Both the position numbers and the translations under genes were made by a program. Shown here piece after piece: positions 12,286-22,004 of a stretch of 38,818 nt of DNA; positions within the stretch are counted from its first letter, which is position 1; every line of letters starts with the position of its first letter. The DNA is from Candidatus Cloacimonadota bacterium (GTDB lineage: Bacteria; Cloacimonadota; Cloacimonadia; Cloacimonadales; Cloacimonadaceae), in contig JAKQNV010000083.1 of assembly GCA_029565595.1 (NCBI GenBank), positions 1 to 38,818 on the forward strand. Direction: 5' to 3'. The notes below the pieces were generated by a model. It was given only the letters and a program-made list of their open reading frames with translations, did not search any database and was not told the DNA's origin.

Positions 12286-13530
12286 TTAGGCCAGGCTTTT
12301 CAACTCGGCCAGGGAGTCTTTGATCGCCTGGACCGTGAAGGCCAGATCTTCGTCCGTATGACGATAGCAGATGTAACCATGGTGATAGGGTTGCAGGAAC
12401 ACCCCGCGCCGTATCAGCTGGGTGTAAAACTCCGTCCGCAGGCGCTTGTAGAGGCCGGTCTCGTCCTTGGGGAATGTGATGAAGGGCATCCAGGGCGCGC
12501 CGCTGAAACGGGCCGGGATCCCGGAATCTGCCACAACTTTTTCGACTTCGGACGCGAATTTCCTGCCCTTTTCGGCCACGACATCCAGCACCTTGTCGCG
12601 TTGCAGGATCTCGATGGTTTTCAGTGCGGCAATTTGGGCATCGCTGTTCGGGAAAAAGGTGGAGGAAAGGAACACCTTGTCGGCCAGGACGCTCATCACT
12701 TCGCGCTTTCCGACCAAGGCTGCGATAGCGTAGCCGTTGGCCATGGCCTTGCCGAAAGTTGAGAGATCGGGAGTGACTCCAAACAGTGCCTGCGCGCCGC
12801 CGATGTGGCAGCGAAAGCCGCTGCGGATCTCGTCAAAAATGAGGACGCAGCCGTATTTGTCGGCCAGTTTGCGGACGCCTTCCAGGTATCCCGGTTTGGG
12901 CATCTGCACGTCCGCGCCCAGAGGATGTCCGACAGGCGTGACGATGATGCCGGCCATATCGTTGGCGTTCTTTTTTAAAATGTCTTCCAACTCATCGAGA
13001 TCGTTGTAGTGGAATTCGATCACGTCTTCATACAACTTTTCGGGAATTCCGCCCTTGACCTCGACGCACTAATCGTGCCAGCCGTGGTAGCCGCAGCGGG
13101 CGATTTTCACTTTGCCCGTGTAGGCGCGGGCAACCCGGATGGCGATCGTGGTGGCGTCACTGCCGGTTTTTACGATCGCGGCCATGTCGCAGCAGGGGAT
13201 GAGTTCCTGCATTTTGCGCACCAGGTCGTTTTGCATCGGCTGCGTGAGCGAAAAGCAGAAGCCTTTCTGGCGGATCTGCTCGATCACGGCGTTGTCGATC
13301 TCCTCTTCGCAGTAGCCGATGATGATCGGCCCATAGGCGCAAAGGTAATCTATGTATTCATTTCCGTCCACGTCGCGGATGCGCCCGCCCTTCCCTTTGT
13401 CGAAGAAGATCGGATATTCGCCCTGGACGAAGTTGTACGGCCTGCGTATGCCGGCGACGCCACCTGGGACGAGGGTTTGCGCCTCGGCGAACATAGCCAT
13501 GCTTTTATCGAGTTTCAAGTGTTCTGCCAT
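12286..13530 (-). pseudogene. class-III (HemL-like) aminotransferase interrupted by an in-frame TAG
   Basis: One continuous minus-strand reading frame of 415 codons is broken only at codon 154 by TAG (13069-13071). Before it lie 153 residues with the aminotransferase N-terminal half (R-R-P-Y-N-F, D-V-D-G-N-E-Y-I-D-Y, K-T-G-S-D-A-T-T-I-A-I-R-V-A-R, G-Y-H-G-W-H-D). After it, in the same frame, come C-V-E-V-K-G-G-I-P and the rest of a PLP fold type I enzyme, with F-D-E-I-R-S-G-F-R (Asp233) and the PLP lysine in F-G-K-A-M-A-N-G (Lys261). Related proteins read H-D-W at this point, so TAG most simply replaces TGG. The downstream part has only a TTG start with no ribosome-binding site. It starts 9 bases after the thiolase stop (same strand). 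It may be glutamate-1-semialdehyde aminomutase-like or a fermentative aminotransferase. Nonsense mutation, suppression or sequence error are all possible. Confidence 0.75.
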
Positions 13531-13539
13531 CTGGTTACC

Positions 13540-14736
13540 TCACGTCGTCCACAGCGTGGCGATGCCCATGCCGCCGCCGATGCAGAGCGAGGCCAGCCCT
13601 TTGTGGACCTGGCGTTTGCGCATTTCGTACAACAGCGAAACGATGATGCGGGCGCCGCTGGCTCCGATCGGGTGGCCAAGCGCGATGGCTCCGCCGTTGA
13701 CGTTGATGATGGAAGGATCGAGTTTTCCCAGTCCTTCCAGTTCCAAGCCCTTCAGGACCGCGAGCGATTGCGCTGCGAAAGCTTCGTTGAGTTCGGCCAG
13801 TTCGACCTCAGCGAGCGACCAGCCGGATTTTTTCAGGACTCTGGCGATGGCCGGGACCGGACCGTAACCCATGATGGCGGGATCCACTCCGGCGGAGGCG
13901 CTGTCCGCGAATGTAGCCAGGACGGGCAAACCAAGTTCTTTGGCCTTGTCTTCGCTCATCATTAATAACATCGCGGCTCCGTCGTTGATTCCGGATGAAT
14001 TGGCAGCTGTGACGGTGCCGTCGGATTTGAAGGCGGGGCGCAGCTTGGCGAGGCTTTCCGCGGTCACCCCTTTACGCGGCATTTCGTCATTGTCGATCAC
14101 GAGCGGATCGCCTTTGCGTTGCGGGATGATGATGGGGACGATCTCGTCCTTGAAACGTCCGCTGGACATCGCGGCTTCGGTTTTATTCTGGCTGGCCGTG
14201 GAAAACAGATCCTGTTCCTCGCGGCTGATCGAGTGTTTTACTGCCAGATTTTCCGCGGTGATACCCATGTGGCAATCGTTGAAAATATCGCTCAGGCCGT
14301 CCCGGATCATGAGATCGACCAATTCCTTGTTACCCATTTTTGAGCCCCAGCGCGTGTCCATCGAGGCGTAGGGGATCTGGCTCATGTTTTCGGTGCCGCC
14401 GGCAACTACGATTTCCGCTTCCCCGGCGCCGATCATCAGCGCGCCAAGGGCGACAGCTTTCATGCCCGAGCCGCAAACCTTGTTCACAACGTAGGCGGGA
14501 ACGAAATCCGGGATTCCGCTTTTGATCGCGACCTGGCGGGCGATATTTTGCCCGTGTCCGGCTCCGCAGACGTTACCCAGGATCACTTCGTCGATCTGTT
14601 CGCCTTTGACGCCAGTTTCGGCGAAAATGGCTTTCATCACTTCCACGCCCAACTGGACGGCGGAAATGTCTTTGAACACTCCTCCAAAATTACCGATGGG
14701 AGTACGTTTGGCGCTCACAACAACGGTCTTTCGCAT
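13540..14736 (-). CDS. atoB: acetyl-CoA C-acetyltransferase (thiolase)
   Basis: The 398-residue protein is a full-length thiolase. The acyl-accepting cysteine is Cys88 (V-N-K-V-C-G-S-G), the catalytic His355 is in G-H-P-I-G-A-S-G, and the second cysteine Cys385 is in C-I-G-G-G-M-G. L-N-E-A-F-A-A-Q is also present. It interconverts two acetyl-CoA with acetoacetyl-CoA, working either in fermentation/degradation or as the first step of C4 synthesis; the direction cannot be read from sequence. GGAGG lies six bases before the ATG. The interrupted aminotransferase follows after 9 bases, so the pair was probably an operon, which may point to amino acid fermentation. The ferredoxin pair is upstream on the same strand, 119 bases away. 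Confidence 0.94.
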   Translation of the reverse strand: MRKTVVVSAKRTPIGNFGGVFKDISAVQLGVEVMKAIFAETGVKGEQIDEVILGNVCGAGHGQNIARQVAIKSGIPDFVPAYVVNKVCGSGMKAVALGALMIGAGEAEIVVAGGTENMSQIPYASMDTRWGSKMGNKELVDLMIRDGLSDIFNDCHMGITAENLAVKHSISREEQDLFSTASQNKTEAAMSSGRFKDEIVPIIIPQRKGDPLVIDNDEMPRKGVTAESLAKLRPAFKSDGTVTAANSSGINDGAAMLLMMSEDKAKELGLPVLATFADSASAGVDPAIMGYGPVPAIARVLKKSGWSLAEVELAELNEAFAAQSLAVLKGLELEGLGKLDPSIINVNGGAIALGHPIGASGARIIVSLLYEMRKRQVHKGLASLCIGGGMGIATLWTT

Positions 14737-16433: not shown

Positions 16434-17459
16434 ATGAACATCAGTTTCCATTATTACGTGACGCGGGTTTTGGCCGAGAAAGCTGGTTTCGCGCCGGCTG
16501 ATGCGCAGACCATAGCATTTGCCTGCCAGCAGGTCGATGACGCCAACCGGCACACGCCGATGAAGGTGAAAAACCTGCCGCCACCTGAATACGAACGGAT
16601 GTCGGACGGCGTTTTTGATCCCACCTGCACCGCTCATAAAGGCATTACCAACATCCTTTACGGTTTTACCGGCATCCGGCGCAAAATCCTGATGCCGTTT
16701 CATTTCATACCGGAAGCCTGGGATTCCACCCGCCGACACTACAAATATCTCACGATCCCCGGAGCGCCCCTGGCTCACACGATGGTCAAAATCGCGCTGG
16801 AAAAGCTGTCCAGTTCCGCGGGCAATCCGCTTTTCCGCCAACTCGCGCTCATCAAACTCGGCATCGCGTTGCACGGTTACGAGGATTCATTCGCGCATCA
16901 GGGTTTTTCGGGACGCAACAATAAGCTGGACAACGACGCCACCGACATCCTGGATGCAGAAAGGGTCCGCCTCAACGAAACCCAGTTAATCGGCCAATTG
17001 GTCGGCTTCATCGGCTACCATATCGGCCACGGCCTGCTCGGCGACCTGCCGGACAAGATCGGGATCGTCGCTTATTATCTGAACGGACGCGGCCTGGCGG
17101 TGATGCTGGACAACGTGGCCCGCTTCACTCTTGCCGCCGAGAAAACCTTCGCACTGCTGCGGGATTTTACCGGTTTCGCCACCGATTGGCCCTCCATCTC
17201 CACGCAAATGGTCAAAATGCTATCCGGCGAATTGCCAAATTTAGCTGCGAAATCCGGCAAGACCGACTGGCAAAAAACTTTCAGCAAAAACTTTCCCGAA
17301 ATCTCTTTCGATTACAAAGCCCAAGCCTGGGAAAGGGAAGCGCTGCGCCAGAACTCGGGGGGATCCTTCACCTACAAAGGCGAGAGCGGCCAAAAATGGA
17401 TCCATTTTCATCGCGCCGCCTTTGAGCAGCGCCAATTCATGCTGGCCAACCTGAAATAG
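16434..17459 (+). CDS. DUF6765-like protein with a zinc-phospholipase-type residue pattern
   Basis: The 341-residue protein begins M-N-I-S-F-H-Y-Y-V-T and has Q-Q-V-D-D-A-N-R-H (33-40), F-H-F-I-P (89-93) and H-G-Y-E-D-S-F-A-H-Q (147-156). The opening and the H-x3-D-x3-H element match what I recall of the DUF6765 family and resemble metal ligands of zinc-dependent phospholipase C / S1-P1 nuclease folds (His6, Asp35/36, His40, His90, His147, Asp151, His155 are candidates). No signal peptide is visible, unlike secreted phospholipases C. The ATG has no clear ribosome-binding site but the conserved start supports it. It ends with TAG, showing that TAG works as an ordinary stop in this window. It is alone in its orientation here. 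The substrate is unknown. Confidence 0.7.
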   Translation: MNISFHYYVTRVLAEKAGFAPADAQTIAFACQQVDDANRHTPMKVKNLPPPEYERMSDGVFDPTCTAHKGITNILYGFTGIRRKILMPFHFIPEAWDSTRRHYKYLTIPGAPLAHTMVKIALEKLSSSAGNPLFRQLALIKLGIALHGYEDSFAHQGFSGRNNKLDNDATDILDAERVRLNETQLIGQLVGFIGYHIGHGLLGDLPDKIGIVAYYLNGRGLAVMLDNVARFTLAAEKTFALLRDFTGFATDWPSISTQMVKMLSGELPNLAAKSGKTDWQKTFSKNFPEISFDYKAQAWEREALRQNSGGSFTYKGESGQKWIHFHRAAFEQRQFMLANLK

Positions 17460-20145: not shown

Positions 20146-20172
20146 ATGGGGCGGATGAATAATTCGCCCCAT
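20146..20172 (+). promoter_or_regulatory. stem-loop between GTPase and carbamate kinase genes
   Basis: ATGGGGCG (20146-20153) and CGCCCCAT (20165-20172) form a perfect 8-bp stem with an 11-base loop, followed by GCATTTT. It may attenuate or stabilise the transcript between the two genes. The T run is too short for a sure terminator. Confidence 0.5.
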
Positions 20173-20199
20173 GCATTTTACAGACTGAACGAGGAAGAT

Positions 20200-21147
20200 A
20201 TGACCAAGACCGCAGTTCTCGCCCTGGGCGGCAATGCCATCATCAAGGCCGGAGAAAAGGGCACCATCACCCAGCAATTTGCCAACACCCGCGAATCCCT
20301 GAGCGGTATAGTAGAATTAATCCGCCAGGGCTACAAGCTGGCGATCACCCATGGCAACGGTCCGCAGGTGGGAAACCTGCTCCGCCAGCAGGAAGCCGGT
20401 GAAAACGAGGGCATCGCGCCTTTGCCGCTCGGAGTCTTGAACGCCGCGACGGAAGGCACGATGGGCTACATGATCGAGCAAAGCCTCCAGAACCGCCTGC
20501 ATTTGAGCGGCATCGAAAAACAGGTGATCACCATCATCTCGCAGGTGGTGGTGGATAAAAACGATCCCAGCATGCTGCATCCCACCAAATTCGTGGGCAG
20601 CACCTATTATTCAGCGGAACAGGCGGAACACCTGAAAAACTCGCTGGGATGGACCCTCCGGGAAGATGCCGGCAAAGGATTCCGGCGCGTGGTTCCTTCG
20701 CCGTTGCCCCAGGAAATCGTTCCGGCCGCGACCATCAAAGAACTTGTCCAGCGGGGCGAGATCGTAATCGCCGTCGGTGGCGGGGGAATTCCCATTTATA
20801 TCGAAGAAAACGGAATTTATGAAGGTGTGGACGCAGTGATCGACAAGGATTTTGCCAGTGCCCTGCTGGCCCTGAACATCGAAGCCGATCTCTTCGTGAT
20901 CCTGACCGGAGTTGACAAAGTGGCCGTCGATTATGGCAAACCCACGCAGCGCGACCTGGACCGGCTGACCGTCGCCGAAGCCAGGAAACACTACGACGAA
21001 AAGCAGTTCCCCGCGGGAAGCATGGGTCCGAAGATCAAGGCCGCGATAGACTTCATCGAACGCGGCGGCAAAGAGGTGCTGATCACTTCGATCGAAAGGA
21101 TCGTGGATGCCTTCGCCGGCAAAACCGGCACAAGGATAACTGCCTGA
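20200..21147 (+). CDS. arcC: carbamate kinase
   Basis: The 315-residue protein has the amino acid kinase fold with the carbamate kinase signatures L-A-L-G-G-N-A (7-13), H-G-N-G-P-Q-V-G (about 52-59), G-G-G-G-I-P (about 200-205) and P-A-G-S-M-G-P-K (about 271-278). It interconverts carbamoyl phosphate + ADP with carbamate + ATP, in fermenters mostly making ATP from arginine, agmatine or purine breakdown. No arginine deiminase or ornithine carbamoyltransferase gene is in the window. ATG 20200 matches the conserved N-terminus and has GAGGA upstream; an earlier in-frame ATG at 20146 falls in the stem-loop and would add unconserved residues. It closes the plus-strand pair. Confidence 0.95.
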   Translation: MTKTAVLALGGNAIIKAGEKGTITQQFANTRESLSGIVELIRQGYKLAITHGNGPQVGNLLRQQEAGENEGIAPLPLGVLNAATEGTMGYMIEQSLQNRLHLSGIEKQVITIISQVVVDKNDPSMLHPTKFVGSTYYSAEQAEHLKNSLGWTLREDAGKGFRRVVPSPLPQEIVPAATIKELVQRGEIVIAVGGGGIPIYIEENGIYEGVDAVIDKDFASALLALNIEADLFVILTGVDKVAVDYGKPTQRDLDRLTVAEARKHYDEKQFPAGSMGPKIKAAIDFIERGGKEVLITSIERIVDAFAGKTGTRITA

Positions 21148-21213
21148 ACCACATACTGGAGTCCCGCAACGCGCACGGACTCCGGAAAAAACCTATCTAC
21201 ATCCAGAAATAAA

Positions 21214-21267
21214 AAACCCTTCCCTGAGTCCAGGAAAGCCGTATCGGCCGGGCTCCGGGAAGGGTTT
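21214..21267. terminator. bidirectional terminator between arcC and cobB
   Basis: AAACCCTTCCC (21214-21224) and GGGAAGGGTTT (21257-21267) form an 11-bp perfect stem between convergent genes. T-rich tracts flank both sides (TTTATATCTTT on the plus strand, TTTTTTATTTC on the minus). A smaller hairpin GGAGTCC/GGACTCC lies just upstream near 21160-21186. Confidence 0.85.
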
Positions 21268-21284
21268 ATATCTTTACAGGCCTT

Positions 21285-21992
21285 TTAGGGAAACCATTCC
21301 CGGACCAGGCGGGGCAGGACTTCCCCGGCTTTGCCGAGATGGAATTCGTCGATGGCTTCGGTTTTGCTGGAAGCATCGGGATTAATCGCCAGAGTGTGGG
21401 CTCCAAGGTATTTGGCGGTCATCACAAAACCGGCCGCGGGATAGACCACGCCGCTGGTTCCCACGAGCAGGAAAACGTCGCAGTTCTTGAGCAGGCTATC
21501 AATGCGGTCCAAATGGTAGGGCATCTCCCCGAACCACACCACATCCGGGCGCAGCGGAGCTCCGCAAGCCGCACAGAGCGGAATCTCGGGCTCCAGATCG
21601 ATTTCCTCCATGGCGTAATGTGCGTCGCATCCGGTGCAGAAACACCTTCGTAGCGAGCCGTGCATTTCGATCGGATCCCTGTTTCCGGCCAAGGTGTGGA
21701 GATTGTCGATATTTTGGGTGATGAGGTGGAAATTGCGGTCCAGTTGCTTTTCCAGATCCACCAGCGCAAAATGCGCGGGATTGGGCTTTGCCTGCAGCGA
21801 ATGTTCGTAGCGGGCTTTGTAGAAACGCCACACCATCCGGGGATCGCGGGCAAAGGCTTCCGGGGTCGCCACATCTTCCATCCGATGGTTTTCCCAAAGG
21901 CCGCCTTTATCGCGGAATGTGCTAATCCCCGATTCGGCGCTGATCCCCGCTCCCGTGAGCACCAGCAGGCGGGTGTTTCTGGTTATCTGCAT
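21285..21992 (-). CDS. cobB: NAD-dependent protein deacylase (sirtuin)
   Basis: About 235 residues with the sirtuin fold: NAD-binding G-A-G-I-S-A-E-S-G-I and F-R-D near the start, T-Q-N-I-D-N-L-H, catalytic His111 (E-M-H-G), a zinc ribbon with Cys119, Cys122, Cys140 and Cys143, and G-T-S-G-V-V-Y-P-A. Tyr58 and Arg61 (F-Y-K-A-R) match the Tyr-x2-Arg pair that lets class-III sirtuins such as SIRT5 and E. coli CobB bind succinyl- or malonyl-lysine, so desuccinylase activity is likely besides deacetylation. The start is ATG 21992 or GTG 21995; spacing from AGGA slightly favours ATG. It lies after the C25 protease gene on the same strand, with a nested inverted repeat between them. Confidence 0.93.
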   Translation of the reverse strand: MQITRNTRLLVLTGAGISAESGISTFRDKGGLWENHRMEDVATPEAFARDPRMVWRFYKARYEHSLQAKPNPAHFALVDLEKQLDRNFHLITQNIDNLHTLAGNRDPIEMHGSLRRCFCTGCDAHYAMEEIDLEPEIPLCAACGAPLRPDVVWFGEMPYHLDRIDSLLKNCDVFLLVGTSGVVYPAAGFVMTAKYLGAHTLAINPDASSKTEAIDEFHLGKAGEVLPRLVREWFP

Positions 21993-22004
21993 CACTTTAG
22001 TCCT

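Follow-up and report, generated by a model that had tools for sequence, protein, structure and literature searches.

An otherwise intact gene of an uncultured digester bacterium of Candidatus Cloacimonadota, assigned here to kat (3-aminobutyryl-CoA aminotransferase), is interrupted by a single in-frame TAG that none of its relatives carries. We suggest, with a probability of roughly 0.5, that this TAG arose as a local consensus error when the metagenome was assembled, which we consider slightly likelier than a real base. The gene lies in a window of 38,818 nucleotides, which is one whole contig (JAKQNV010000083.1) of a draft genome of 2.06 Mb in 190 contigs, 84% complete. The coordinates of the gene and its neighbor are collected in Table 1.

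Table 1. Features of the interrupted gene and the adjacent thiolase gene in the window.
Feature	Position	Strand	Remarks
kat-like gene, 415-codon frame including the terminal stop	12286..13530	-	interrupted once
In-frame TAG, codon 154	13069..13071	-	TGG (Trp) in 109/109 other sequences
N-terminal 153 codons	13072..13530	-	translates to a fragment lacking the PLP lysine; matches the Aminotran_3 profile only at positions 8-129
C-terminal open frame past the stop	12286..13035	-	first start-like codon is TTG; contains K261
Acetyl-CoA acetyltransferase (thiolase)	13540..14736	-	intact, directly upstream of kat

The frame starts with an ATG at 13530 and ends at 12286, and apart from codon 154 it contains neither a stop before codon 415 nor a frameshift. 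The original prediction had located the TAG correctly, at codon 154 of a 415-codon frame, without giving the strand, which is minus. It had also described both sides of the TAG as lying in one frame with no other lesion and with Lys-261 as the PLP lysine, and these features can be read directly from the sequence, where K261 is found inside the motif FGKAMAN. The base that differs is at 13070, a G to A change on the gene strand, which corresponds to C to T on the plus strand. When the TAG is translated as Trp, the resulting 414-residue protein can be aligned over its full length with intact relatives, with identities of up to 89%. The nearest named relatives are Cloacimonadota MAGs, several of them of digester origin. 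The first start-like codon past the TAG is the TTG at 13035, 12 codons downstream.

The proposed class-III aminotransferase identity was borne out and can now be narrowed to kat. The PF00202 profile matched both parts of the interrupted protein, which has the fold and the PLP lysine of this class and could be aligned to solved HemL structures. The protein is HemL-like, but a true HemL identity is ruled out, since it reaches only 273.9 bits with TIGR00713, where 527.3 are required, and is thus far under the HemL equivalog cut-offs. In Candidatus Cloacamonas acidaminovorans, the HemL-like protein CLOAM0809 is Kat and is encoded beside the thiolase CLOAM0810 (Perret et al. 2011, PMC3149608). Only the C. 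acidaminovorans enzyme has been demonstrated to act on 3-aminobutyryl-CoA with 2-oxoglutarate (PMC3149608). Because the combination of a HemL-like protein and an adjacent thiolase matches the CLOAM0809/CLOAM0810 arrangement, the interrupted gene is, judged by sequence and gene order, kat of the Cloacimonadota lysine-fermentation variant. The thiolase-kat pair is present in 68 of the 110 kat loci examined (our own locus counted) and in nearly all Cloacimonadota. In the thiolase neighbor itself, none of 155 near-invariant columns is changed, and the lysine-fermentation genes kamA, kamD, and kce are present and intact in the same genome. No second kat paralogue was found in the 84% complete draft, and the interrupted copy is the only Kat candidate. 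Thus, the locus resembles that of C. acidaminovorans (PMC3149608) in having a gene for a HemL-like class-III PLP aminotransferase beside an acetoacetyl-CoA thiolase gene, in the same phylum and together with lysine-fermentation genes, and it differs from CLOAM0809 in having one in-frame TAG at codon 154. A search for a phage origin gave no match. Elsewhere in the window, at 20146-21995, there is an amino-acid-kinase-family gene with a convergent Sir2-family gene, and both are ordinary.

Comparison with homologues shows that the stop is peculiar to this sequence. Codon 154 is TGG, within YHGWHDW, in all 109 other homologous sequences (94 of them distinct) from Cloacimonadota, Bacteroidota, Riflebacteria, and others, in agreement with the earlier view that TGG to TAG is the simplest change. 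No relative ends at this site; a stop at the position of codon 154, which programmed readthrough would be expected to conserve, occurs in 0 of the 109. An apparent lesion in one relative (G054), a 'TAA', proved to be its terminal stop, and the broken frames of another (G042) are runs of N at scaffold gaps. Furthermore, the interrupted gene has none of its 129 near-invariant columns changed. The mean pairwise pN/pS of this kat with eight congeners is 0.136, and the value among the intact congeners is 0.141; it is similar for codons 1-153 and codons 155-414. Since these values equal those of intact congeners in both halves, no decay has accumulated in the gene. The normal pN/pS, the retention of the invariant columns, and the lack of further lesions rule out an old or decaying pseudogene. 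From these comparisons, normal purifying selection acted on kat practically up to the present, and the stop is private and, if real, young.

General use of TAG as a sense codon is contradicted by the recovered 84% of the genome. Of the 381 long genes counted in 622 kb of its sequence, TGA is the stop in 194, TAA in 119, and TAG in 68, and the gene ending at 17459 also terminates with TAG, as had been noted before. The release factor gene prfA (RF1) is intact, with a score of 503 bits. Pyrrolysyl-tRNA synthetase (PylS) was not found in the 84% complete draft, and none of the 33 tRNA genes recovered from it has the anticodon CTA. A reassigned TAG, or one read as pyrrolysine, would explain why the frame stays open past codon 154, but the use of TAG as a normal stop, the intact prfA, the absence of PylS and of a CTA tRNA among the 33, and the presence of Trp at this site in relatives all stand against it. 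General reassignment, already thought unlikely in the original prediction, is therefore refuted within the recovered 84% of the genome, and we regard it as the least probable of all the explanations, with a negligible chance of being correct.

The draft is generally clean, yet local errors do occur in it. When 622 kb of the same genome were scanned for same-frame coding stretches split by a stop, 15 candidates emerged, among which the kat TAG is the only clear interruption; the rest either have a start at most a few codons away or mark boundaries between genes. Since there is no other case in 622 kb of a same-frame stop with long coding flanks and no near restart, the kat stop is not background. 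A frame scan of the 622 kb found one clear frameshift, in prfB (RF2). There, at G000:C85:4367-4386 (locus L165), a 20-bp inverted segment stands in place of the catalytic GGQ loop. Its reverse complement is the congener sequence, identical in 20 of 20 positions to that of one congener; the segment is flanked by short inverted repeats and followed by the frameshift. This lesioned prfB is the only one detected in the draft genome, and prfB is full-length and intact in 10 of 12 congeners. As RF2 is indispensable to a cell in which half of the genes end in TGA, this piece is most likely wrong; the inversion is probably an assembly error or a chimeric-read artefact, unless the genome's missing part contains a true copy. 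A generally error-ridden genome can be rejected, since only kat, for its stop, and prfB, for its frame, are conspicuous in 622 kb. In the closest congener, a low-coverage contig (G012:C54) has two apparent frame breaks in neighboring genes, at about 1313 and about 6458 of L170, which suggests indel errors of that congener's draft.

Recent mutation, strain polymorphism, sequence error, and suppression had all been offered as explanations of the TAG, and all of them stand, with suppression the weakest. In the case of a consensus error, one base would have been miscalled in the assembly, leaving one private substitution in an otherwise normal, selected kat. In favor of such an error are the TGG in every other sequence, the unchanged columns and ordinary pN/pS, the intact thiolase, kamA, kamD, and kce in a genome with no second kat copy, and the nature of the draft, which is in 190 contigs and contains a demonstrably false or lethal prfB lesion. 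However, the prfB lesion is a micro-inversion rather than a substitution and says nothing on the rate of base miscalls, and one in-frame stop per 622 kb is also what a bacterial genome would normally carry as real nonsense mutations. That the base is an error is thus what we infer, at about even odds. A real and very recent nonsense mutation, as a null allele or a strain polymorphism, comes close behind, falling somewhat short of an even chance. No spontaneous change is commoner than a single G to A transition, the rest of kat is undamaged, and a real load of one nonsense mutation per about 600 kb is plausible; against this, no relative carries the mutation, the pathway genes checked besides kat are intact, and the same assembly contains at least one artefact. 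If the null allele is real, a 153-residue fragment lacking the PLP lysine would be made, 3-aminobutyryl-CoA would not be transaminated, and the lysine route would be blocked or leaky in this strain.

The remaining explanations require that the TAG be real and that Kat nevertheless be made. Readthrough that yields some full-length Kat, whether through natural leakiness or with an amber-suppressor tRNA, is very unlikely, and it is more unlikely still that the TAG is fixed and that a suppressor encoded in the unrecovered part of the genome restores full-length Kat. Conservation past the stop is equal to that before it, but this is not evidence of readthrough, because the same lack of decay would be expected of a very young stop. 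The 33 tRNA genes recovered from this incomplete genome include none for Trp, Tyr, or Ile, probably because contigs are missing, and a suppressor could derive from one of these three; the search for a CTA anticodon that had been proposed found none among the 33. Cloacimonadota are reported to include a tRNA-Trp(CCA) with 4-bp anticodon stems, but it reads UGA, not UAG (PMC13092985). Furthermore, RF1 is intact, the RNA folding past the TAG is unremarkable (z -1.73) and gives no readthrough signal there, and no second such gene was seen in 622 kb. A genuine split enzyme, with the N- and C-terminal parts made separately and reassembling, could use the TTG as a restart, and both parts are open. 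However, the gene is split in no relative, the TTG simply encodes a Leu within the conserved frame, and only one substitution separates the parts, so we consider a split enzyme scarcely credible.

What does the stop mean for the organism? It is ordinary and nothing new in kind. Like nonsense-interrupted alleles or local consensus errors in other MAGs, it is a single private substitution that puts a stop in a conserved gene, and only the particular gene differs; a literature search on premature stops in MAGs was uninformative. The prfB inversion usefully warns against trusting this draft genome too far at the level of single bases. As annotated, the genome would seem to be without a functional 3-aminobutyryl-CoA aminotransferase, and hence without a complete lysine route, and to conclude from the annotation that this route has been lost is probably a wrong metabolic inference. 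If the TAG is a consensus error, Kat would be ordinary and intact in the living organism and would transaminate 3-aminobutyryl-CoA as part of lysine fermentation.
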